DNA of 64,000 nucleotides from Natronobacterium haloterrestre (lineage in GTDB: Archaea; Halobacteriota; Halobacteria; Halobacteriales; Natrialbaceae): positions 310,001 to 374,000 of the forward strand of contig NZ_FOKW01000002.1 of NCBI RefSeq assembly GCF_900112205.1, written 5' to 3'. A program made the translations under genes and the position numbers. Of this stretch, positions 18,082 to 31,223 are shown one piece after another (positions within the stretch are counted from its first letter, which is position 1; each line of letters begins with the position of its first letter). Under the pieces are notes generated by a model. It ran no database searches. It saw only the letters and a list, made by a program, of their open reading frames with translations, and was not told the origin of the DNA.

Positions 18082-18684
18082 ATGAAACTCCAGCAGAACG
18101 TACGTCACTTCGCGTCCCGCAAGGCCCTCGAGACGCCGGTCGTTCGCTCGGCGGCCAAGTCGGGACTCGTCCGGCTTCACACGCGAGTCTTCCTGGGGAA
18201 GGCCGATCCGGAGCGGGCCGACGAACGGAAGGACCACCTCGACGGCCTGTTCGATGCGACGGTCGACACCTACCTCCGGGCGCTCCAGGACGGCTATTCC
18301 GAGGCCGAGGCCCGCGAGATCACCCACATCCAGGCCAACTTCGACTTCTACAACCACGGCTGGACCGAGATGATGGAGTTCCCGGTCGACGAACTCGAGG
18401 CCCACTACGAGCGCTACCGGGACTTCTTCGAGACGTGGGAGATCACGATCGACGACCCGCTTGGCCAGTTCGCGCCGCGGGACGGGCTGGCGCCGGCCCC
18501 GTCGACGCCCGAGAAACTCGAGGATCCCGAACACCCCCACGCGGAGGGCGGGTTCGCGGACGACGCCTACGTCGAGACCGAGGACGGCGAGCTCGTGGTC
18601 GGCGGACGCGACGGACCCGACGAGGTGGACGTCTCGAAAGCGGTCGGCGTCGAGGACTCGTCGGCCGATGCTGCCGAAAACTAG
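18082..18684 (+). CDS. conserved haloarchaeal protein (DUF6149-like)
   Basis: The protein has 200 residues and starts MKLQQNVRHFASRKALETP. It is soluble and largely helical, with a conserved-looking core YSEAEAREITHIQANFDFYNHG, then WTEMMEFPVDELEAHYERY, and a tail HPHAEGGFADDAYVETEDGE. I recognise it as a haloarchaeal family I believe is DUF6149; function unknown. Its 3' end overlaps the convergent binding-protein gene by 4 nt. Confidence 0.7.
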   Translation: MKLQQNVRHFASRKALETPVVRSAAKSGLVRLHTRVFLGKADPERADERKDHLDGLFDATVDTYLRALQDGYSEAEAREITHIQANFDFYNHGWTEMMEFPVDELEAHYERYRDFFETWEITIDDPLGQFAPRDGLAPAPSTPEKLEDPEHPHAEGGFADDAYVETEDGELVVGGRDGPDEVDVSKAVGVEDSSADAAEN

Positions 18685-20048
18685 GATCGAGCCTCCCGTA
18701 ACCACGGCGGTGCCTCGTACTCCGCCGTCGCCAGTTCGTCCGGCCAGATGACCTCCTGGACGCCAACCCCGGCGGCGTTCTCCTGCCACTGGAAGAACGG
18801 GAACTGTTCGGAGCCGTACTCGAGGTCGTGAGCGAACTCGTGGTCCGGACCGTAGAACTCGAGGGTTCCGACGGTGCCGGTAAACGAGATCGACTCGAGT
18901 TCGTCGACCAGTTCCCCGTCGTCGAAGGTCCCGGCGCTTTCGACGGCCTCGGCGTACAGCATCACCGCGTCGTAGGTGTGATAGCCGGTGTAGACCGGGT
19001 TCGACTCGTACTCTTCCCGATAGCTATCGACGAAGGGCTGGGTCTTCTCGGTGTTCCGGCTGCGGGCCGTCGCGCTAGTGTGGCCGATCCCGTACCGACA
19101 GGCTCCCCCGGTCTGCCGGTAGTAACTCGGCAACTGCATCGGGACGTGGATCCCGCCGAAGTCGAACGGTCGCGGCTGGGGTACCTTCCAGTCCCGCAGG
19201 GCGTCGGTCCCCGTGTGTGCGGTGGTGATCAACGCGATGTCCGCACCCGACTCCTGGACCTCGTCGTACAGTCCCGAGAAGTCGTCGGTCGCGGGCGGGT
19301 ATCGCCGCTCTAGCGTAACCCTGACGCCGGTGTCCTCGAGTCGTTCCTGGTAGACGTCCCACGGCCCTTCGGTCCAGTCGTAATCCTCGGCGAGGACGGC
19401 GACCGACTCCCAGCCGATCTCCGGGGCCATGTCTGCGAGGAAGTCGACGACGCCGCGCCCGAGGTCGCGGTCGTTCGTCGGGCCGACGCGAAAGTGATAC
19501 CTGTAGTCCTCGTACTGCCGACTGACCAGCCTGCTCGCGGCGGAGGTCGCCGCACCGGTCGTGAGGTGAAGCGTTTCCTGTTCGGCGACGTCGTCGAGGA
19601 CGTTCAACAGCGCGGGGCTGTCGAAGATCCCGACCGTCACGTCCGCGTCGTCCTCGAGGACGAGTTGCTGGTACTGGCGGCGGGCCTCGAGCGGACTCGC
19701 GTTCGTGTCGCGAACGGCGAGTTCGACCTCGTGGCCGGCGATCCCGCCGGCGTCGTTGAGTTCGTCGACGGCGATCCGCGCCGAGCGGGCCATCGACCGG
19801 CCGACGAAGTCGCCGTCCGGGTCCGGCGCGAGCAGGCCGATCGTCACCCCGTCGTCTGCCGTCTCGCTGCCGACCACGGCGCCGTACGCTTCCGTACCCG
19901 CGTCGTCCAGACACCCCGCGGACGCGACCGCGAGGGCTCCCGCCGCGCCCTCGAGAAACCGACGCCGACGCCGGCCGGTCGCCGTGTCGTTTCGCTCCCC
20001 GTGCTCTCCGGTTGCCCCCTCTTCGAACCCGTGCTCCGATCCGGTCAT
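18681..20048 (-). CDS. periplasmic-type ligand-binding lipoprotein (Bas-like, transducer-linked)
   Basis: The protein has 455 residues. A Tat signal with a basic RRRRRFLEGAAGALAVASAG ends in a lipobox cysteine (AGC), so it is exported folded and lipid-anchored. The mature part is a type I periplasmic binding fold of the branched-chain amino acid/amide class: VTIGLLAPDPDGDFVGRSM, GIAGHEVELAVRD, and VYTGYHTYDAVMLYAEA near the end. No ABC permease or ATPase genes are near. It is divergent from a chemotaxis transducer across 248 bp. This points to a chemoreceptor accessory role like BasB/CosB of Halobacterium rather than to import. Confidence 0.85.
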   Translation of the reverse strand: MTGSEHGFEEGATGEHGERNDTATGRRRRRFLEGAAGALAVASAGCLDDAGTEAYGAVVGSETADDGVTIGLLAPDPDGDFVGRSMARSARIAVDELNDAGGIAGHEVELAVRDTNASPLEARRQYQQLVLEDDADVTVGIFDSPALLNVLDDVAEQETLHLTTGAATSAASRLVSRQYEDYRYHFRVGPTNDRDLGRGVVDFLADMAPEIGWESVAVLAEDYDWTEGPWDVYQERLEDTGVRVTLERRYPPATDDFSGLYDEVQESGADIALITTAHTGTDALRDWKVPQPRPFDFGGIHVPMQLPSYYRQTGGACRYGIGHTSATARSRNTEKTQPFVDSYREEYESNPVYTGYHTYDAVMLYAEAVESAGTFDDGELVDELESISFTGTVGTLEFYGPDHEFAHDLEYGSEQFPFFQWQENAAGVGVQEVIWPDELATAEYEAPPWLREARS

Positions 20049-20296
20049 CTCGACCAGTATTTCTGTTTATAATTCTTAATAGTTGTGGGAGTGACGTGAT
20101 GGTGTGGATTCACTTTCGCGGAGTCGACCAGGAAATTGTGAAAGATAGTAACGATATATCGCCGATTTAAACAACGATATTCGTCCATTGGTCCCGTGCA
20201 GTTTCCGATCGAAGGCCGATCGCGATGCCAGCGGTTATCGGATCTGATAATAATACGTCATAATTTATATGTCGTTGTACTCATGTGTCCGGTGGC
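20049..20296. promoter_or_regulatory. divergent promoter region of binding protein and transducer 1
   Basis: This AT-rich 248-bp gap lies between oppositely oriented genes. On the plus side TTTATAT at 20264-20270 sits about 30 nt before the ATG at 20297, fitting a leaderless transcript. On the minus side the stretch around 20065-20090 (TTTATAATTCTTAATAG) is a plausible TATA region for the binding protein. No operator repeat is obvious. Confidence 0.5.
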
Positions 20297-23038
20297 ATGG
20301 ATTTCCCTCGAGGATTGGTACCGGCAGCCATCCGACGCAGGTACGCGGTCAAGTTCGGGATCGCGTTGCTCGTGCTCGGACTGTCGGTGGGGTTGATCGG
20401 GTTCGTGGCGACGGCCGGCATCACACACGAGGTCGAAGAACGGGTGCAGGACGACCACGCGGAGTTCGCCGGCCAGGAGGCACAGGGGCTACAGATGTGG
20501 AACGAGCAGAACGAGCACACGATCGGGGTGATCGCCTGGTCCGGCGTCGTCGCCGCCGACGATCCGGCGGCGATCCAGGAACGGTTCCTCGACTGGGAGG
20601 AACACTTAGACGCCGACACCTTCGCGATCAGTTACGTCGACACCGACGAGGGGACCGTCCTCGCGAGCACCGAGGGCGACCTCCGCGAGGCGTCCGCCGA
20701 CGAGATCGAGAACGTGCCGGAGGAGGCCTACGAGAGCGCCACCGAACAGGTGCCCTGGGTCTCGAGTCCGTACGTGCTCGAGGGCGAACTCGGCGAGGAG
20801 ACCGCGGTCATCACGTACGTCCTCTCGGTCCCCGGACAGGACGACAGGGCGATCGTCTACACCGCCGACCTCGAGGCCTACGGGAGCCAGTTCCAGGACG
20901 ACGAGCAGGTGACGACGGTCGTCGTCGACGGGGCGGATCGGATCATCCTCGACGACGCCGGCTACGGCGACGAGTACGAGACGCTCAACAGCGCCTACGA
21001 CGGCGATGCCGGCCTCCTCGAGGCTGCACGGACGGAAGGGGCGAGCACGCAGGAACTCGACGGTGCCCCGAGCGTCCTCGAGAGCTACGGGTTCGAGGCC
21101 GACGAGTACGTCGCCAGCGCGGCCCGTGTCTCGGGCACGGACTGGGTCGTCGTCACCCACGAGCCGATCGAGGAGACCTACGGCTTCGTCGCAGCGGTCA
21201 ACGAGTGGGGACTGATCGCGACCGCCGTCGGGGTCCTCCTGATCGGCGCGGTCGGGGCCGTGGTCGGCCGGAACACGGCCTCGTCGATCGACAAACTGAC
21301 CCGGAAAGCCGAACGGATGGAGGAAGGTGACCTCGACGTCGATCTCGAGACGAAACGGATCGACAACATCGGCCGGCTCTACGACGGCTTCGACTCGATG
21401 CGGGTCGCTCTGCGCGACCAGATCGAGGAGGCCGAGGCTGCCCGCGAGGAAGCCGAACACGAGCGCGAACGCGTCGAGGCGATCAACGAACGGCTGGAGC
21501 GGAAGGCCGACGAGTACAGCGACGTGATGGAGGCCGCCGCCGATGGCGACCTGACCGCGCGGATGGACGTCGACGGCGGCGACGCGGACGACGAGGCCAT
21601 GGCCGCGATCGCGGCCGAGTTCAACGAGATGCTCGCCGAGATCGAAACCACGGTGGCCGAGGCCGAGCGGTTCGCCACCGCCGTCGCGACCGCCTCCGAA
21701 CAGGTCACGGCCTCGAGCGAGGAGGTCCGGTCGGCCTCCCGGCAGGTGACCGAGTCGATCCAGGAAATCTCCGACGGCGCGGAACGGCAGAACGAGGCGC
21801 TCCAGTCGGTCGATGGGGAGATGAGTGCCCTCTCGACGACCACGGAGCAGATCGCCGCCTCCTCGAACGAGGTCGCGGATCTCGCCGAACGGACCGCCGA
21901 AACCGGCGAAAGCGGACGCGAGGCGGCCCGGGACGCGGTCGTGGCGATGGACGAGATCGAGGACGACGCCAAGGGAGCCGTGACGGAGATCCGTCGTCTC
22001 GAGGAAGAGGTCCAGCAGATTGACGAACTGATCGCGACCATCTCGGAGATCGCCCGCCAGACGAACATGCTGGCGCTGAACGCGAACATCGAAGCCTCCC
22101 GCTCGGCGTCCGGCGAGGACGACGAAGGGTTCGCGGCGGTCGCCCAGGAGGTCAAGGCGCTGTCCGAAAACGTCGCCGAGGCGGCCGACGAAGCCGAGAA
22201 ACGCCTCGAGGCGATCCGGGAACGGACCGAACGCTCCGCGGCGGAGGTCGAAGACACCACGGCCGAAATCGAAGATGCCGGTCGGAAAGTCCAGGAAGCG
22301 GTCGACGCGCTCGAGGAGATCGCGGACCTGGCCGGCGAGACGAACGTCGGCGTGCAAGAGATTTCGGCGGCCACGGAGGAACAGGCCGCGTCGACCGAGG
22401 AGGTCGTCGCGATGGTCGACGGCGCGGCGACGATCTCCGAGGAGACGACTGCCGAGGCAGAGAACGTCGCGGCGGCGGCCGAGGAACAGACCTCCGCGCT
22501 CACCGAGGTTACCGAATCGGCCTCGAGTCTCTCGGAGCAAGCGGGGCGGCTCTCGGAGGCGCTCGACCGGTTCGAGACCGACGCCGAACCCGAACCCGAC
22601 GGGGCCGGGCCGGAACTCGAGACGCCGGCGGTCGATGGGGCCGGCGAGAACGGCCAGTCCGAGTCGACCGTCGATTCCGGAACTGCCGACGGTTCGGTCG
22701 CCGATTCCACAGGGGGAGCCGACGACGAATCGGTCGGTCTCGAGGGCATCGAAGACCCGGAGTCGGTGCGGGAAAGTGAGGGCGAACAGGGACAGGTAAA
22801 CGACGCGGGGGACGGCGTCGGTTCCGATCCCCTCGGGGTCATCGATGGGGCCGACGGCCGTATCGAGGACGATCCGGCGGGCGACGGCGCGGGTGTCGAC
22901 GCAACCCGGGAGTCGACCGACGGCGGTGATGCCGGCGCTGACACCGTCGACCGAGACGCTGACACGACCGAGCAATCGGACGACGATTCAACCGACGGCG
23001 AGGACGTGTTCACGTTCGGCGACGGATCGGACGGATGA
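20297..23038 (+). CDS. methyl-accepting chemotaxis transducer 1 (Htr)
   Basis: The protein has 913 residues from ATG 20297; a GTG at 20285 is a weaker alternative. It has TM1 at about 20-42, an extracellular sensor domain at about 45-300, and TM2 near 305-325 (WGLIATAVGVLLIGAVGAVVG). HAMP modules follow (MEEGDLDVDLETKRIDNIGRL and a second ADGDLTARMD). Then come the cytoplasmic helices with the hairpin tip QTNMLALNANIEASR near 585-598, the CheA/CheW contact. A low-complexity acidic tail of about 145 residues ends in DVFTFGDGSDG. It likely signals with the divergent binding protein. Confidence 0.93.
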   Translation: MDFPRGLVPAAIRRRYAVKFGIALLVLGLSVGLIGFVATAGITHEVEERVQDDHAEFAGQEAQGLQMWNEQNEHTIGVIAWSGVVAADDPAAIQERFLDWEEHLDADTFAISYVDTDEGTVLASTEGDLREASADEIENVPEEAYESATEQVPWVSSPYVLEGELGEETAVITYVLSVPGQDDRAIVYTADLEAYGSQFQDDEQVTTVVVDGADRIILDDAGYGDEYETLNSAYDGDAGLLEAARTEGASTQELDGAPSVLESYGFEADEYVASAARVSGTDWVVVTHEPIEETYGFVAAVNEWGLIATAVGVLLIGAVGAVVGRNTASSIDKLTRKAERMEEGDLDVDLETKRIDNIGRLYDGFDSMRVALRDQIEEAEAAREEAEHERERVEAINERLERKADEYSDVMEAAADGDLTARMDVDGGDADDEAMAAIAAEFNEMLAEIETTVAEAERFATAVATASEQVTASSEEVRSASRQVTESIQEISDGAERQNEALQSVDGEMSALSTTTEQIAASSNEVADLAERTAETGESGREAARDAVVAMDEIEDDAKGAVTEIRRLEEEVQQIDELIATISEIARQTNMLALNANIEASRSASGEDDEGFAAVAQEVKALSENVAEAADEAEKRLEAIRERTERSAAEVEDTTAEIEDAGRKVQEAVDALEEIADLAGETNVGVQEISAATEEQAASTEEVVAMVDGAATISEETTAEAENVAAAAEEQTSALTEVTESASSLSEQAGRLSEALDRFETDAEPEPDGAGPELETPAVDGAGENGQSESTVDSGTADGSVADSTGGADDESVGLEGIEDPESVRESEGEQGQVNDAGDGVGSDPLGVIDGADGRIEDDPAGDGAGVDATRESTDGGDAGADTVDRDADTTEQSDDDSTDGEDVFTFGDGSDG
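22200..22527 (+). repeat. 328-bp tract identical to 26516-26843 (copy 1)
   Basis: By direct reading this segment of transducer 1 is identical, base for base, to the same domain position in transducer 2 at an offset of 4316 bp. On both sides the two genes differ at synonymous and non-synonymous sites. It covers the descending part of the signalling domain. Confidence 0.85.
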
Positions 23039-23409
23039 GACTCGAGCCGGGAGGAACCCGAACCGGACGAGCGGGGCCGCCTGTTACCTTTCGTCGCCGG
23101 CCGCAGTTCGTCAGGGTGCTGTCGGGGAGCGTGACGTCGCGGTCATCCGCGAACGACCTCCGTCGGTAGCGTTTCGCTTCCGACGGCGAGAACGGTGCTC
23201 GGCCTGCCGTCGAATCCGTTTCTCGAAACGGCTGGCTCGTATATCGTCACAAGTCGTTTTTGCCTCCGTTTCTCTTCTCCCGTCGAACGGTACCTGCTGT
23301 GTATATTGGCACAATATATCAACCGAACCATGAAGGTCTATTTCAACAACTCTGGAGTAGTCATATGAGATTCCATTAATCTAATATATGGTTGGTTAGA
23401 TCTGCAAAC
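23039..23409. other. intergenic gap with promoter for binding protein 2
   Basis: This is 371 bp without a supportable gene. The only signal seen is the TATA-like TAATATAT at 23382-23389, about 24 nt before the ATG at 23410. The stretch 23260-23400 is relatively AT-rich, as expected of a haloarchaeal promoter region. No hairpin terminator or repeat was recognised. Confidence 0.5.
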
Positions 23410-24678
23410 ATGAACAGGAATTCAACCCGACGGCGACTGCTCGCGGGGCTTGCCGGCTCCGCCGTCGCCGCCTTCGCAGGTTGTAACGACGTCGTCTCCG
23501 ATGGCTCAACAGGCCTCACCTCCTCCGAAACCGATCGTGCCAGTACCGATCGAACGATCAAACTCGGTACCATGCTCCCTCTGAGCGGCCCACGAAGCGC
23601 CGTCGGGGAGGGAATCCGCGACGCCGCCGTTTTGCCGATCGAACAGGCCCGCGACGGCCTCGAGATTCCCCTCGAGATCGAGCATACGGCCGCCGACACG
23701 GAAAGCGACCCGGCGGCCGCGGCTCAGGCGGCCGCCTCGCTCGTGGACGACGGGTATCCGATGGTGACCGGCCCGCTGGACTCCGACATCGTCCTGCAGG
23801 CCACCCAGCAGGTGTTGATCCCCTACCAGACCGTCTGTTGTTCGCCCGGGGCGACCACTCCCACGCTCACTACGCTCAACGACGGCGGGTTCGTCTTCCG
23901 GACTGCTCTCTCGGACAACGTCCAGGGGACTGTCATGGCCGAGATCGCAACCGCCGAACTCGGCCACGACACCGCCGCCACCCTCTATGTCAACAACGAC
24001 TACGGGTGGCAACTCAGCCAGGCGTTTAGCCGTGCCTTCCGCGACCGCGGAGGCACCGTCACCGACCAGATTCCCGTCGACGTCACCGCAGATTCCTACG
24101 CAGACGCGCTCGAACGCGTAGGCGAGGCCGACCTGGCGATTCCGGCGATCTACCCCGAGATGGCCCAGACGCTGTTTACCGATCTCGGGCCCTCTCCCGA
24201 CCTCGACGTTCTCTGTACCGACGCCCTGCGGGAGCCCGACCTCTCCGAGCAGGTCGACTACTCGCTGAACGGCATCAAAGGTACCGCGCCGCTGATCGAC
24301 GGGCCTGGCACCGAGACGTTCGTCGACCGCTACACTGCCGAGTACGGCACCGAGCCCGGGCTGTTCGCGTACTACGCCTACGATGCCACCGCAGTGTTGC
24401 TGCTGGCCAACGCTTACGCCGGCCAGAACGACGGTCAGGCGATCCAGAGCGCGATCCACTCGGTGACCAGCCCCGGCGGCGAAACGATCACGCCGGAGTC
24501 GATCGCCGACGGCATCACCCTCGCCGCACAGGGGTCGGCCGTCGAATACCGCGGCGTGGCCAACGATACCGGCTTCGACGACAACGGCGACCCGACCGAG
24601 ACCACCTTCGAGTACTGGGAGTTCGACGACAGCGCCGACGGCGGAATCGCCGAACTCGACCGCATCGACCCCTATTAA
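23410..24678 (+). CDS. periplasmic-type ligand-binding lipoprotein (transducer-linked)
   Basis: The protein has 422 residues. The signal NSTRRRLLAGLAGSAVAAFAGC is a Tat lipoprotein signal ending in a lipobox. The mature protein is a type I periplasmic binding fold: IKLGTMLPLSGPRSAVGEGI, LYVNNDYGWQLSQAFSRAF, and an AYDATAVLLLANAYAG helix. That is the branched-chain amino acid-binding class. The start at 23410 rather than an in-frame ATG at 23392 follows from the TATA box. It ends 6 nt before transducer 2, so the two are surely co-transcribed. This is the arrangement of BasB/BasT in Halobacterium, where the binding protein presents ligand to the receptor. Confidence 0.88.
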   Translation: MNRNSTRRRLLAGLAGSAVAAFAGCNDVVSDGSTGLTSSETDRASTDRTIKLGTMLPLSGPRSAVGEGIRDAAVLPIEQARDGLEIPLEIEHTAADTESDPAAAAQAAASLVDDGYPMVTGPLDSDIVLQATQQVLIPYQTVCCSPGATTPTLTTLNDGGFVFRTALSDNVQGTVMAEIATAELGHDTAATLYVNNDYGWQLSQAFSRAFRDRGGTVTDQIPVDVTADSYADALERVGEADLAIPAIYPEMAQTLFTDLGPSPDLDVLCTDALREPDLSEQVDYSLNGIKGTAPLIDGPGTETFVDRYTAEYGTEPGLFAYYAYDATAVLLLANAYAGQNDGQAIQSAIHSVTSPGGETITPESIADGITLAAQGSAVEYRGVANDTGFDDNGDPTETTFEYWEFDDSADGGIAELDRIDPY

Positions 24679-24684
24679 CAGACA

Positions 24685-27243
24685 ATGTCACTCGCAACAA
24701 CACTCGTCCCCTCGTTCATCCGGCGCAGTTACCTCGCCAAGTTCGTGCTCGCCATCCTGACTATCGTCCTCGTCATCGGCGTCGTCGGCGCTGGCAGCTA
24801 CGTCGCCATCGACGATACCGTCCGGGCCGACGCCAACGCCCAACTCGAGACGACGGCGGAGATGCAAGCGGACGAAATCAGCACCTGGATGGAATCGATG
24901 TCCGTCCAGACACGCACCGCATCGTCCTCACCCGTCCTTCAGGAGGGGAACCCACAGGAGGTCCAGGGCCACCTCGTCGAAGAACAGGCTCGCATGGGCG
25001 TCAACGTTCGCGCGATCCACTACGTCGACACCGACGCAGACGAAATCGTCACCAGCACGACAGCCTCCTACCGCGACCGCTCGCTCGCGGACCTCGAGGA
25101 GCCGTGGCGTGACCACGACTTCGACGCCGAGTTCGAGTTAGACGAGGAGGTCTGGTACACGGAGTCGGCCTACGAGTCGCCGACGTTGAACGACCAGGTG
25201 ATGGCGTTCGCCAGCCCGGTGCCGGACCGCGACGACAGGGTCGTCGTTGTCATCGGTACCCTGGAGTACCAGATCGAACAGCTCCACCTGGAGAACACGT
25301 CCGAATCGACGTCCATCCTCGATGCGGACGGCAACGACGTCTTCCGGGCCGACGAGGCATCGTCCGACGTCGACGACGATGCTCTCGAGGCGGCGCTTGG
25401 TGGCCGAGTGGGCCTGGTAAACGACGAGGAGACGGTTCAGGCGTACGTCCCGGTGAGCGACACGCGGTGGGTGGCGGTCTCGAGCGTGCCGACCGACGAG
25501 GCCTACGGCGTGGCCGCAAGCGTCCGGAACAACGTGTTGACGATGCTGCTGGTGAGCCTGGGTGGACTGAGCCTGGTCGGGGTCGTCCTCGGGCGACAGA
25601 CGGTCGGACCGCTCCGGACCCTGCAGGACCGGGCTGCGAAGATGGAATCCGGTAATCTCGAGGTCGACCTCGAGACGAATCGGATCGACGAGATCGGCCA
25701 GTTGTTCGACGGCTTCGATTCGATGCGGGTCGCCCTGCGCGACCAGATCGAGGAGGCCGAGGCCGCCCGCGAGGAAGCCGAACGCGAGCGTGAACGCGTC
25801 GAGGCGATCAACGTTCATCTCGAGGAGAAGGCCGACGAGTACAGCGACGTAATGGGAGCAGCCGCCGCCGGTGACCTGACCGCGCGGATGGATACCGACA
25901 GCACCAACGAGGCGATGGCGGAGATCGCTGCGGAGTTCAACGAGATGCTCGCCGAGATCGAGGCTACGGTGGCAGGGCTAAACCGGTTCGCGACGGAGGT
26001 CGCGACCGCATCCGAGCAGGTGACCAGTTCGAGCGAGGAGGTCCGATCGGCCTCCCAGCAGGTCTCCGAGTCGATCCAGGAGATTTCCGACGGCGCGGAG
26101 CGCCAGAACGAGTCCTTGCAGTCGGCCAACCAGGAGATGAGCGCCCTCTCGACGACGACCGAAGAGATCGCCGCCTCCTCGAACGAGGTTGCCGATCTCG
26201 CGGAGCGAACGGCCAACACCGGCGAGGACGGACAAGAACCGGCTCGAGAGGCGATCGCGGCGATGGACGAGATCGAGGTCGAGGCCGGCGACGCGGTCGC
26301 GGAGATGCGCCGCCTCGAGGAGGAGGTCCAGCAGATCGACGAACTGATCGCGACGATTTCCGAGATCGCCCGCCAGACGAACATGCTGGCGCTGAACGCG
26401 AACATCGAGGCTTCGCGGTCGGCATCCGGCGAGGACGACGAAGGGTTCACGGCGGTCGCCCAGGAGGTCAAGACCCTCTCCGAGGACGTCGCCGAGGCGG
26501 CCGACGAGGCCGAGGAACGCCTCGAGGCGATCCGGGAACGGACCGAACGCTCCGCGGCGGAGGTCGAAGACACCACGGCCGAAATCGAAGATGCCGGTCG
26601 GAAAGTCCAGGAAGCGGTCGACGCGCTCGAGGAGATCGCGGACCTGGCCGGCGAGACGAACGTCGGCGTGCAAGAGATTTCGGCGGCCACGGAGGAACAG
26701 GCCGCGTCGACCGAGGAGGTCGTCGCGATGGTCGACGGCGCGGCGACGATCTCCGAGGAGACGACTGCCGAGGCAGAGAACGTCGCGGCGGCGGCCGAGG
26801 AACAGACCTCCGCGCTCACCGAGGTTACCGAATCGGCCTCGAGCCTCTCCGAGCAGGCGGTCCAGCTTTCCGAGGCGCTCGATCGGTTCGACACCGACGC
26901 CGAACCCGCCGACCTCGAGACGGCGGCCGGAGTCGAGGCGAGCGCCGACGCCGCTTCCGGGGACGACGAGACGCCGTCCGCGACGGCGGGGGACGATGGC
27001 GCGGCAGTCCTCGGAGCTATCGAGGAGTCGGAGCCGGACCGGGAGCCGAATCCGGCGGACGACGGCGACGCTGATCCGCTCGATCCCGACGTCGACTCCG
27101 CGGATCGACGCACCGACGATGACGACGAGGCCGAAACCGGATCCCGAAGCCAAGGCCGGGCCGGAAACGGACTCGAGGACGCTGACGCCGACGGAGAAAC
27201 GGACGGAGACGTGTTCACGTTCGAGGACGACCCCGAGGAGTAA
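24685..27243 (+). CDS. methyl-accepting chemotaxis transducer 2 (Htr)
   Basis: The protein has 852 residues. TM1 is at about 20-40 (VLAILTIVLVIGVVGAGSY). The extracellular region of about 240 residues has a Cache-like ending (AYVPVSDTRWVAVSSVPTDEA). TM2 lies near 283-303. HAMP (KMESGNLEVDLETNRIDEIG), the hairpin tip QTNMLALNANIEASR and an acidic tail with DVFTFEDDPEE follow. The extracellular domain is unlike those of transducers 1 and 3, while the cytoplasmic half is nearly the same. That suggests domain swapping with a shared signalling module. It is translationally close (6 nt) to the binding protein upstream. Confidence 0.93.
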   Translation: MSLATTLVPSFIRRSYLAKFVLAILTIVLVIGVVGAGSYVAIDDTVRADANAQLETTAEMQADEISTWMESMSVQTRTASSSPVLQEGNPQEVQGHLVEEQARMGVNVRAIHYVDTDADEIVTSTTASYRDRSLADLEEPWRDHDFDAEFELDEEVWYTESAYESPTLNDQVMAFASPVPDRDDRVVVVIGTLEYQIEQLHLENTSESTSILDADGNDVFRADEASSDVDDDALEAALGGRVGLVNDEETVQAYVPVSDTRWVAVSSVPTDEAYGVAASVRNNVLTMLLVSLGGLSLVGVVLGRQTVGPLRTLQDRAAKMESGNLEVDLETNRIDEIGQLFDGFDSMRVALRDQIEEAEAAREEAERERERVEAINVHLEEKADEYSDVMGAAAAGDLTARMDTDSTNEAMAEIAAEFNEMLAEIEATVAGLNRFATEVATASEQVTSSSEEVRSASQQVSESIQEISDGAERQNESLQSANQEMSALSTTTEEIAASSNEVADLAERTANTGEDGQEPAREAIAAMDEIEVEAGDAVAEMRRLEEEVQQIDELIATISEIARQTNMLALNANIEASRSASGEDDEGFTAVAQEVKTLSEDVAEAADEAEERLEAIRERTERSAAEVEDTTAEIEDAGRKVQEAVDALEEIADLAGETNVGVQEISAATEEQAASTEEVVAMVDGAATISEETTAEAENVAAAAEEQTSALTEVTESASSLSEQAVQLSEALDRFDTDAEPADLETAAGVEASADAASGDDETPSATAGDDGAAVLGAIEESEPDREPNPADDGDADPLDPDVDSADRRTDDDDEAETGSRSQGRAGNGLEDADADGETDGDVFTFEDDPEE
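26516..26843 (+). repeat. 328-bp tract identical to 22200-22527 (copy 2)
   Basis: This is the transducer 2 copy of the identical tract described for transducer 1. The corresponding part of transducer 3 (about 29260-29580) differs at many positions, so the identity is specific to this pair and not forced by protein constraint. Confidence 0.85.
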
Positions 27244-27359
27244 CACGGCGTCGGACCCTCGGATCGTCGGCGACAGCCCGGGTTCCGCTACCGGGTAGCT
27301 ATCAGCTTCGATAACTGCGTACCATAACTTATGTAGTGACGAGACTGTCCGTGGCTATT

Positions 27360-30200
27360 ATGAGTCTCGTCCGACGGCTAGTACCCGCAGTTATCCGCCG
27401 ACGGTACGCGGTCAAGTTCGCGATCGCGTTGCTCGTTCTCGGGGTAACTGTCGGGATGATCGGGTTCGTTGCCACGGCGACGATCACCGACGAAGTCGAA
27501 GAGAGCGTCCAGGACGACCATCGAACGGCCGTCCAGCAGGAAGCACAGAGTCTACAGATGTGGCACGAACAGAACGAGCGAACGGCGTCGCTGATCGCGA
27601 CTTCCGACGTGGTCGCGTCCGACGACGCCGCGGCGATCGAGAGCAGCCTCGGGGACTGGCGGCTGGAACACCGCACCGAGGTGTTCGAGATTTCGTACGT
27701 CGACACCGGGGAGCGTGAAGTCCTCGCCAGTACGGCCGACCGGTTCCGCGGCGAGTCGACCGACGTCCTCGAGAGCGTCGACGACGAGGCCTACGACGCG
27801 GTCGGTGAGGACGGTACCTGGGTCTCCGAGCCGGCGCTCGTCACCGGTCTCAGCGACGAGGAGACGCCGGTCGTCTCCTACGTCGTGGCATCGGACGACG
27901 ACCGCGCGATCGTCTACTCCGCGGACCTGATGTCGTACATGCACAGCGTCCACGTCGACGACCACGTCACCATGATGGCGCTTTCCGGCGAGGGGACGGT
28001 GATGGCCGACAGCGAGAACCTCGGCGAGAACTACACCACTTTCGGCCTCGAGTACGGCGACCGGTCGGTGCTCTCGCTGGCCGACGGCGAGGGTGGCGGC
28101 GCGGACGTCGTCGAGGGAACGGCCTCGGGTGCGCTCGCGGACGGCACGTACGGGTTCGACGCCGACGAGTACGTCGTCAGTGCCGCGTCGGTCGAGGGTA
28201 CCGACTGGACGATCGTCTACCACGAACCGACCGAGCACGCCTACGGGTTCGTCAACGACGTCAACGAATGGGGGATGATCGCGACCGCGGTCAGCGTCCT
28301 CACGATCGGCCTGATCGGGGCCGTGCTGGGACGGAACACCTCCCGCTCGATCGACAAACTGACCCGGAAAGCCGAACGGATGGAGGAAGGCGACCTCGAC
28401 GTCGATCTCGAGACGAAACGGATCGACAACATCGGCCGGCTCTACGACGGCTTCGACTCGATGCGGGTCGCTCTGCGCGACCAGATCGAAGAGGCCGAGA
28501 CCGCCCGCGAAGAGGCCGAGCAGGAACGCGAACGCGTCCAGCAGATCAACGATCACCTCGAGGAGAAGGCCGGCGAGTACTGTGCGGTGATGGGCGACGC
28601 TGCCGACGGCGACCTGACCGTGCGGATGGACGCAGACAGCGAGAACGAGGCGATGGAGACGATCGCCACCGATTTCAACGGGATGCTCGCCGAGATCGAG
28701 GCCACGGTCGCGGGGCTGAACCAGTTCGCGACGGAGGTCGCGACCGCCTCCGAACAGGTCACGGCCTCGAGCGAGGAAGTCCGCTCGGCGTCCCAGCAGG
28801 TGACCGAGTCGATCCAGGAGATCTCCGACGGCGCGGAACGCCAGAACGAGTCGCTCCAGTCGGTCAACCAGGAGATGAGCGCCCTCTCGACGACGACCGA
28901 AGAGATCGCCGCCTCCTCGAACGAGGTCGCCGACATCGCCGAACGGACCGTCAACACCGGCCAGGGAGGCCAGGAGGCGGCCCGCGAAGCGATCGCGGCG
29001 ATGGACGAGATCGAGGTCGAGGCCGGCGACGCGGTCGCGGAGATGCGCCGCCTCGAGGAGGAGGTCCAGCAGATCGACGAACTGATCGCGACCATCTCGG
29101 AGATCGCTCGCCAGACGAACATGCTGGCGCTGAACGCGAACATCGAGGCCTCCCGCTCGGCGGGCGGCAACGACGACGAAGGGTTCGCGGCGGTCGCCCA
29201 GGAGGTCAAGGCCCTCTCCGAGGACGTCGCCGAAGCGGCCGACGAGGCCGAGGAACGCCTCGAGGCGATTCGTGACCGGACCGAACGCTCGGCTGCGGAG
29301 GTCGAGGGAACCAGTGCGGAGATCGAAGACGCCGGTCGGAAAGTCCAGGAAGCGGTCGATGCACTCGAGGAGATCACGGATCTGGCCGGCGACACGAACG
29401 TCGGCGTCCAGGAGATCTCGGCGGCGACCCAGCAGCAGGCCGCGTCGACCCAGGAGGTCGTGGCGATGGTCGACGATGCGGCGACGATCTCCGAGGAGAC
29501 GACCGCCGAGGCGGAGAACGTCGCGGCGGCGGCCGAGGAACAGACCTCCGCGCTCACCGAGGTCACCCAGTCGGCCTCGAGCCTGTCCGAGCAGGCGGTC
29601 CAGCTTTCCGAGGCGCTCGACCGGTTCGACACCGACGCCGAACCTGAGGACCTCGCCTCGGACGTCGCCGTCGACGTCGGCGAGTTCGCGACGGACGTGG
29701 TCGCCGAAGCCGAAGGTGAGGACGCGGCAGAGACCGAGGTCGACGACGCGCCGGCCGAGATCAGCGCCGACGAGATCCTCGGCCTCGAGACGGAGGGCGA
29801 CGCGGAAGCAGACGTCGAAACCGACGACGGGACGGACCCACTCGAGTTCGACGACCAGTCGGCGGACGAGGACGCGGATCCGCTCGCGGTGTCGGGAACG
29901 ACGACGGCCGATGACGACGTGGTCGAGGCCGACACGGAGCCGATCGCGTTCGACGACGAGGCGCCGTCCGACGCCGCAGATCCGCTCTCCCCGGTCGACG
30001 AGGGGGCGGACGACGCCGCGGCCGTGACGGACGCCGGCGGCTCGGACCCACTCGCGCCGACCGGTTCCGACGGCGAGGCTGACGACGAGAGCGAAACCGA
30101 ACACGACGACGTATTCACGTTCGGTGAAGGCGGGGACGAAAGCGAAGGAGAGGACGAAGACGAAGACGAGGACGAGGACCCAACCGACGACTCCGAGTAA
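27360..30200 (+). CDS. methyl-accepting chemotaxis transducer 3 (Htr)
   Basis: The protein has 946 residues from ATG 27360 (MSLVRRLVPAVIRRRYAVKF); an ATG at 27336 is also in frame. The TATA-like CATAACTTA at 27323-27331 favours 27360. TM1, sensor, TM2 and first HAMP are close relatives of transducer 1 (MEEGDLDVDLETKRIDNIGRL is shared exactly). The hairpin tip QTNMLALNANIEASR is present. The acidic tail of about 190 residues carries DDVFTFGEGG and then an Asp/Glu run. No binding protein is attached. It probably senses its ligand directly or borrows a binding protein from its neighbours. Confidence 0.92.
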   Translation: MSLVRRLVPAVIRRRYAVKFAIALLVLGVTVGMIGFVATATITDEVEESVQDDHRTAVQQEAQSLQMWHEQNERTASLIATSDVVASDDAAAIESSLGDWRLEHRTEVFEISYVDTGEREVLASTADRFRGESTDVLESVDDEAYDAVGEDGTWVSEPALVTGLSDEETPVVSYVVASDDDRAIVYSADLMSYMHSVHVDDHVTMMALSGEGTVMADSENLGENYTTFGLEYGDRSVLSLADGEGGGADVVEGTASGALADGTYGFDADEYVVSAASVEGTDWTIVYHEPTEHAYGFVNDVNEWGMIATAVSVLTIGLIGAVLGRNTSRSIDKLTRKAERMEEGDLDVDLETKRIDNIGRLYDGFDSMRVALRDQIEEAETAREEAEQERERVQQINDHLEEKAGEYCAVMGDAADGDLTVRMDADSENEAMETIATDFNGMLAEIEATVAGLNQFATEVATASEQVTASSEEVRSASQQVTESIQEISDGAERQNESLQSVNQEMSALSTTTEEIAASSNEVADIAERTVNTGQGGQEAAREAIAAMDEIEVEAGDAVAEMRRLEEEVQQIDELIATISEIARQTNMLALNANIEASRSAGGNDDEGFAAVAQEVKALSEDVAEAADEAEERLEAIRDRTERSAAEVEGTSAEIEDAGRKVQEAVDALEEITDLAGDTNVGVQEISAATQQQAASTQEVVAMVDDAATISEETTAEAENVAAAAEEQTSALTEVTQSASSLSEQAVQLSEALDRFDTDAEPEDLASDVAVDVGEFATDVVAEAEGEDAAETEVDDAPAEISADEILGLETEGDAEADVETDDGTDPLEFDDQSADEDADPLAVSGTTTADDDVVEADTEPIAFDDEAPSDAADPLSPVDEGADDAAAVTDAGGSDPLAPTGSDGEADDESETEHDDVFTFGEGGDESEGEDEDEDEDEDPTDDSE

Positions 30201-30341
30201 CGCCAGCCGACTGCTCGTTCTTTTCTGCGGTGTTCCCGATGAGCCGTGCTACCGGCGTCACAGTCGGCACCGCGTCGAGAGGGGCGACTCGAGTGCCACT
30301 CGTTCGCTACCTTTTTCCCTGCCGTCTGGAAAGGAATCGGC

Positions 30342-31223
30342 ATGCTCACCGTGCGGGCTCCGGCGACGAGCGCGAACCTCGGGAGCGGTTTCGACGTCTT
30401 CGGCGTCGCGCTCGGGACGCCCGCCGACGTGGTTCGGGTCGAGCGCGCCCCGGAGACCACGATCACCGTTACCGGAGCCGGCAGTCAGTACATCCCGGAA
30501 GACCCGGCGAAGAACACCGTCGGTGCGGTCGCCGACGCGCTCGACGCTCCGGCGCGCATTCGGATCGACAAGGGGGTCAGACCCTCGTCGGGGCTCGGCT
30601 CCTCCGCCTCGAGCGCCGCCGCCGCGGCCGTGGCCCTCAACGAACTCTACGATCGCGGCCTCTCCCGGAGAGAACTGGTTCCGATCGCCGCCGAGGGCGA
30701 GGCGCTGGTCTCCGGCGAGGCCCACGCGGACAACGTGGCGCCGTCGCTGCTGGGCGGCTTCACGGTCGTCACCGACGACGGCGTTACCCAGATCGACGCC
30801 TCGATCCCGGTCGTCGCCTGTCTGCCCGACATGGCCGTCTCCACGCGTGACGCCCGCGAGGTCGTCCCCGAACGGGCCCATATGAGCGACGTCGTCGACA
30901 CCGTCGGCAGTGCGGCGACCCTGACGATCGGGATGGCCCGGAACGATCCCGAACTCGTCGGGCGCGGCATGGAAGACGAGATCGTTACGCCCGAACGCAG
31001 CGCGCTCATCGACGGCTACGACCGCGTCCGTGAGGCCGCCTTCGAGGCCGGCGCGACCGGCGTCACGGTAAGCGGCGCGGGGCCGGGCGTGCTCGCGGCC
31101 TGTTACCGGTCGGATCGACGGGCGGTCGCCGCGGCGATGGTCGAGGCCTTCGACGCGGTCGGCGTCGACAGCCGAGCATACCAGACCGTCGTCGGGGACG
31201 GCGCGCGGCTTTACACGGAGTAA
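30342..31223 (+). CDS. thrB: homoserine kinase
   Basis: This 293-residue GHMP kinase phosphorylates homoserine on the way to threonine. N-terminal MLTVRAPATSANLGSGFDVF is the hallmark of ThrB. The GHMP ATP-binding motif P-x3-GLGSSA is seen as RPSSGLGSSASSAAAAA near residues 80-97. A C-terminal glycine-rich GVTVSGAGPGVLA completes the fold. Length and motifs are standard. Its start follows the transducer 3 stop by 141 bp. Confidence 0.95.
   Translation: MLTVRAPATSANLGSGFDVFGVALGTPADVVRVERAPETTITVTGAGSQYIPEDPAKNTVGAVADALDAPARIRIDKGVRPSSGLGSSASSAAAAAVALNELYDRGLSRRELVPIAAEGEALVSGEAHADNVAPSLLGGFTVVTDDGVTQIDASIPVVACLPDMAVSTRDAREVVPERAHMSDVVDTVGSAATLTIGMARNDPELVGRGMEDEIVTPERSALIDGYDRVREAAFEAGATGVTVSGAGPGVLAACYRSDRRAVAAAMVEAFDAVGVDSRAYQTVVGDGARLYTE

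Follow-up and report, generated by a model that had tools for sequence, protein, structure and literature searches.

The window, that is, the whole 64-kb stretch of DNA that was analyzed, carries three genes for MCP chemoreceptors (H1, H2 and H3) on its forward strand, each with PF00015 and PF00672 matches above cut-off. H1 (917 aa; 20285..23038) consists of an N-terminal sensor region, a HAMP domain, an MCP signalling domain and a low-complexity acidic tail of about 158 aa (22562..23035). H2 (852 aa; 24685..27243) and H3 (27336..30200; 954 aa from a GTG start, or 946 aa from the ATG at 27360) each have a dCache_1 match under the Pfam cut-off in addition to the HAMP and MCP signal domains, and end in acidic tails of about 121 aa (26878..27240) and 194 aa (29616..30197), respectively. 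The D/E content of the three tails is 32-41%. Near the end of each tail stands the pentapeptide DVFTF, hereafter the tip, which occupies aa 907-911 of 917 in H1 (23003..23017; C-terminal sequence EDVFTFGDGSDG), aa 842-846 of 852 in H2 (27208..27222; C-terminal sequence GDVFTFEDDPEE) and aa 925-929 of 954 in H3 (30108..30122; DDVFTFGEGG), at distances of 6, 6 and 25 residues from the C-terminus; a representative tip peptide is DDVFTFGNTDDE. A six-frame scan of the window found exactly three matches to DVFTF, one per receptor, which bears out the preliminary description in placing the motif near the ends of all three acidic tails.

Divergent from H1 lies a gene for a Peripla_BP_6 substrate-binding lipoprotein (18681..20048, reverse strand), homologues of which are found beside most orthologous receptors, and a second Peripla_BP_6 lipoprotein gene is located between H1 and H2 (23392..24678, forward strand). 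The downstream anchor of this conserved locus is a GHMP kinase gene (homoserine kinase-like, named from a sequence motif; 30246..31223, forward strand), present at 25 of the 27 loci compared. In other genera, a single-copy orthologue of the receptors is flanked by the divergent lipoprotein gene and the kinase gene, and the window's genus has the expanded order binding protein, H1, binding protein, H2, H3, kinase. Given the Peripla_BP_6 genes beside them, H1-H3 probably sense the ligands of such proteins. Halobacterium BasB/BasT is a binding-protein/transducer pair, and the two kinds of locus are alike in having a substrate-binding lipoprotein gene beside an Htr-type transducer; the single Halobacterium receptor obtained (L098), which is not BasT, carries no tip. 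As candidates for a partner of the tip encoded beside the receptors, these neighbours were rejected, since the substrate-binding protein and the GHMP kinase explain the ligand side and the synteny, not the tip.

Among the 23 receptors of the window genome, four were found to be tipped; DVFTF itself is limited to H1-H3, and the fourth (L016) carries DAAFEFDEDG. Three others (L005, L006 and L020) have acidic tails of 68-95 aa containing nothing that resembles the tip, and an acidic tail alone is therefore insufficient for it. One further receptor frame of 1108 aa (L015, G000:C15:110671) has a long non-acidic extension past the signalling domain, possibly a fused extra domain.

Haloarchaeal genomes were then searched with a degenerate DNA pattern for (D/E)DVFTF(G/D/E), with the reversed pattern as a control. 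Matches were obtained in 43 of 75 genomes of the window's family versus 4 of 217 from other haloarchaea; the reversed control gave none. All 26 in-family matches read outside the window's genus were at the ends of acidic receptor tails, with the protein stopping 5-18 residues past the motif, and the four matches outside the family were not receptors; the search for [DE]VFTF that had been proposed with the preliminary description thus returned real receptor C-termini within this family. Synonymous codons within the tip DNA vary (GTG/GTC/GTA, ACG/ACC/ACA and TTC/TTT), which indicates that selection acts on the protein.

A tail-blind sample, gathered by the HAMP and signalling region only and consisting of the family receptors of the tipped clade (see below) with tails of at least 40 aa (n=125), contained F-x-F within the last 40 residues of 118 tails and F-x-[FL] in 123, the additional five being F-x-L. 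When six receptors found via the motif were included (n=131), F-x-F was observed in the last 40 aa of 124 tails, compared with a mean of 3.8 and a maximum of 9 in shuffled tails, and its density was 125 in the 5,240 residues of the last 40 aa against 7 in the 20,633 residues of the remaining tail. The tip consensus is D-D-[VM]-F-[TSE]-F-[GD], usually followed by 2-9 mostly acidic residues (most often 4-7), and F-x-F itself is followed by 2-21 residues (most often 6-7); positions −3 and −2 are each D or E in 108 of the 124 tips. Variants include DMFSFAQ, DEVFSFG, DSFQFD, DVEFEFG and ETFSLDG, and some tails have two tips (e.g. L218). The tails preceding the tip vary from 40 to 658 aa within the clade (median 212), cannot be aligned, and have a D/E content mostly of 30-45%, a composition suggesting that they are probably disordered.

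Receptors with an F-x-F tip came from at least 24 genera of the window's family, which includes Natrinema, Natrialba, Haloterrigena, Halopiger, Natronorubrum, Haloarchaeobius and Halorubellus, and which we infer from these members to be Natrialbaceae sensu GTDB. To this family the tip is nearly confined, and it is not general among haloarchaea. Outside it, one unplaced genome (L082) carries DMFSFADD, and tipped receptors numbered 0 of 10 and 1 of 9 in single genomes of two other haloarchaeal families. Such near-absence in other families, together with the untipped acidic tails of the window genome, led us to reject the tip as a general feature of haloarchaeal acidic tails, and with almost no tips in the two other families, the suggestion of a haloarchaeal counterpart of the bacterial pentapeptide does not extend to haloarchaea at large. 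A receptor of another haloarchaeal family (L367) has the end SDGGFDFDA, an F-x-F tip outside the tailed clade. In a Hyphomicrobiales bacterium (L125), two nearby chemoreceptors end in GGFDFAMDEIEDD... and GGFAFDMDGGEDQDD... after basic linkers, which may possibly be independent bacterial F-x-F tips.

A quick FastTree tree built on the signalling region placed every tipped receptor (n=129) in one clade of 136, with a support of 97. Seven members of this clade are untipped, and four of these have tails of only 17-35 aa; a Salinarchaeum member (L081) lacks the tip and has an end resembling a helix-hairpin-helix domain. H1, H2 and H3 each group with their own orthologue in a sister species, and the triplication therefore predates the split of the two species. 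It could be argued that the tip is a relic of a recent duplication of three genes, or that it arises by chance in sequence that is acidic and of low complexity. In the signalling domain, H2 and H3 indeed share 88% and 82% identity with H1, and the triplication is common to the sister species; nevertheless, the tip has been kept in at least 24 genera while the tails were randomised, at a frequency (124/131) far from that of the shuffles (3.8), so that we regard this explanation as already refuted and give it practically no weight. Recent duplication, which the preliminary description had named as a finding that would refute its proposal, is therefore no explanation for a tip that marks one clade over at least 24 genera, and the tip, judged from the tree, is much older than the H1-H3 triplication. 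The same distribution bears on an action of the tip in cis, independent of any outside partner, in which it would fold back onto the helices or HAMP domain of its own receptor or act as a C-terminal signal for stability or degradation. Limitation to one receptor clade and loss together with the tail would fit such a role, but tails of 40-658 aa without conserved spacing, the occurrence of double tips and the persistence of clade members without tail or tip all argue against it, and a general degron would not be limited to one receptor clade; we therefore consider a role in cis improbable.

The only CheR found genome-wide in the window genome is encoded inside a cheY-B-A-C-C-D-R operon, the CheA of which has 1419 aa, and a short CheA is also present as a 686-aa open frame on another contig (L395, G000:C28:14001-34000). 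The same operon, with a 1576-aa CheA, has been described for Natrialba magadii (PMC3403918), and the accessible part of that account draws no link to tipped receptors or to an adjacent pilus cluster. Across 76 family genomes, CheA frames were bimodal, with lengths of 1099-1588 aa versus up to 835 aa, and three genomes with a broken or shorter CheA frame (G293, G304 and G308) were classed as long-type by the adjacent cheR. Of the 61 long-CheA genomes with at least one clade receptor read, 59 showed tips (F-x-F or F-x-L), six further genomes being unread; in the two exceptions (G296 and G307), one of five or six receptors was read. No tip was found in the nine genomes without a long CheA (five without CheA and four, of one genus, with a short CheA only), nor at 30 receptor loci of the short-CheA-only genus. 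Because this one genus gives all four informative negatives, the pattern is strong though not an independent count, and the association is phylogenetically clumped. All seven receptors inside short-CheA loci lack both tail and tip, and G118, which has a long CheA only, carries F-x-F tips on three of its five receptors, a fourth ending in KFDWQEPQ. The tip thus tracks one chemosensory system, the long-CheA system. In a short-CheA-only genome, a cheR about 70% identical (G057:C1:877184-877726) is interrupted by stop codons, suggesting that a second che system is decaying in that genus.

At least 12 genomes, from 8 genera, have a clade receptor convergent with and next to cheR, with a tip on the receptor ends that were read; at 60 cheR loci of two other families, no receptor of the tipped clade was beside cheR. 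Such an arrangement is found in a minority of cases and may stem from the che cluster as a whole. A type IV pilus cluster follows the long-CheA operon in all the genomes checked (11 loci; L396, L399-L407), at a distance of about 4-7 kb from cheR; it encodes a T2SSF (PilC-type) membrane protein and, in the window genome, additionally a T2SSE/PilB3-like ATPase and DUF7266/7287/7288 proteins. From this gene content, cheYBACCDR and the pilus cluster may possibly form a pilus-linked archaeal chemosensory system. The long-system CheA (L238:6569-10828, L329-L348) has an acidic linker of 430-830 aa ahead of its dimerisation domain, whereas single genomes from two other haloarchaeal families have linkers of 53 and 304 aa, so that both the CheA linker and the MCP tails are expanded in the window's family. 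A motif common to receptors and CheA was considered, as the CheA linker of the window genome contains GGFQFE, and rejected, since CheA linkers outside the window's genus almost never contain F-x-F.

In bacterial chemotaxis, the tethering of adaptation enzymes to receptors is textbook knowledge. E. coli receptors recruit CheR and CheB through NWETF at the end of a flexible linker (PMC7390727, PMC7698151), and in a survey of 247,387 chemoreceptors, pentapeptides were almost absent from archaea, with 0 of 2,730 in Halobacteriales (PMC7390727). Like the tip, the bacterial pentapeptide (NWETF in E. coli Tar/Tsr, GWETF in Pseudomonas) is aromatic and acidic (mostly acidic among bacteria, PMC7390727), ends a linker of unconserved sequence past the MCP domain (flexible in bacteria and probably disordered in the tipped receptors), is carried by only a subset of receptors, and in Pseudomonas is tied to one of several che pathways (PMC7698151). 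In contrast, the aromatic spacing is F-x-F (i,i+2) in the 124 tipped tails and W-x-x-F (i,i+3) in the bacterial pentapeptide, the consensus of which has aromatics at positions 2 (mostly W) and 5 (mostly F) (PMC7390727), whereas DVFTF has V at position 2; the pentapeptide is at the extreme C-terminus, whereas 2-21 residues follow F-x-F; and the median tail is 212 aa for tipped receptors versus about 35 for pentapeptide receptors. The CheR of the window genome best matched B. subtilis CheR (5FTW, 122 bits versus 71 bits for Salmonella 1BC5), and its beta-subdomain segment (LS...NF) has 30 residues versus 33 in 1BC5. The beta-subdomain loop separates pentapeptide-dependent from pentapeptide-independent CheR, and we take the short-loop CheR of the window genome to be of the independent type. 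Because spacing, end position and CheR loop all differ, the tip, on sequence grounds, falls outside the bacterial pentapeptide family. The counterpart envisaged in the preliminary description thus survives in part: a conserved aromatic tip on a diverging tail, with its own long-CheA operon, behaves as a tethered docking peptide would, and the closer fit to the bacterial pentapeptide was not upheld. Bacterial SSB likewise has a conserved amphipathic C-terminal docking tip on a variable acidic disordered linker, the same architecture as that predicted for the receptor tail and tip, in an unrelated protein and process.

A docking motif best explains a conserved tip on a diverging tail, its loss with the tail and its restriction to the receptors of one system, and the tip is quite likely a docking motif of some kind. 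The NWETF analogy, together with cheR being the neighbour where there is one, makes an adaptation enzyme the leading candidate, and the odds that the partner would be CheR or CheB are about even. The reading that we favor, at a probability of roughly 0.5, is therefore a tethered docking motif for the adaptation enzymes of the long-CheA system, CheR first and CheB second. As a short linear docking motif at the receptor end, the tip would be carried on the acidic, probably disordered tail (40-658 aa) as a flexible tether, which would let it present a cytosolic partner close to the methylation helices of receptors belonging to the long-CheA (cheYBACCDR) system. It may thereby concentrate adaptation enzymes at the array and, where a genome has two che systems, help to direct them to the right receptors. 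The family-specific residues of CheR gave no trace of a binding site, as the 39 signature positions are scattered along the protein and are not enriched in the beta-subdomain, the peptide-binding subdomain; the clearest of them, F/Y166, was discounted because it also occurs in short-system CheR.

The tip may instead dock another component of the long-CheA system (CheC, CheD, CheW or CheA), or a polar or pilus scaffold, and serve array assembly, signal termination or localisation rather than methylation. Such a partner would share the same co-occurrence with the long CheA, and would accord with the two CheC and the CheD encoded beside CheR, with the short-loop type of that CheR, with the PilC-type pilus cluster adjoining the operon in every genome checked, and with CheD being the hub in the network of Che interactions of Halobacterium (PMC3579733). 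However, where the two are neighbours, it is cheR and no other che gene that abuts the tipped receptor. To our knowledge, moreover, no receptor-tail docking site is known for CheC, CheD or CheW, and we hold this alternative to be tenable but the less probable one. A bolder extension of the adaptation-enzyme reading would have the tip serve as an address label for a separate long-CheA system beside the PilB3/PilC pilus cluster, selectively recruiting its own adaptation enzymes, thus insulating it from the archaellum-linked system and perhaps steering pili. With one CheR for 23 receptors, four of them tipped, insulation cannot be the whole role in the window genome, and we think this extension rather unlikely; if true, archaea would have evolved an unrelated peptide of their own to take the part of NWETF.

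DVFTF was in none of the open-access papers searched, and targeted searches found no description of the tip in the open literature, in agreement with the preliminary description, whose author knew of none. If archaeal receptors do tether adaptation enzymes by a conserved tip of another sequence, they would have reached the bacterial solution by convergence. The tip moreover singles out the receptors that belong with the long-CheA che operon of Natrialbaceae, adjacent to pilus genes, and gives a ready peptide for binding assays.
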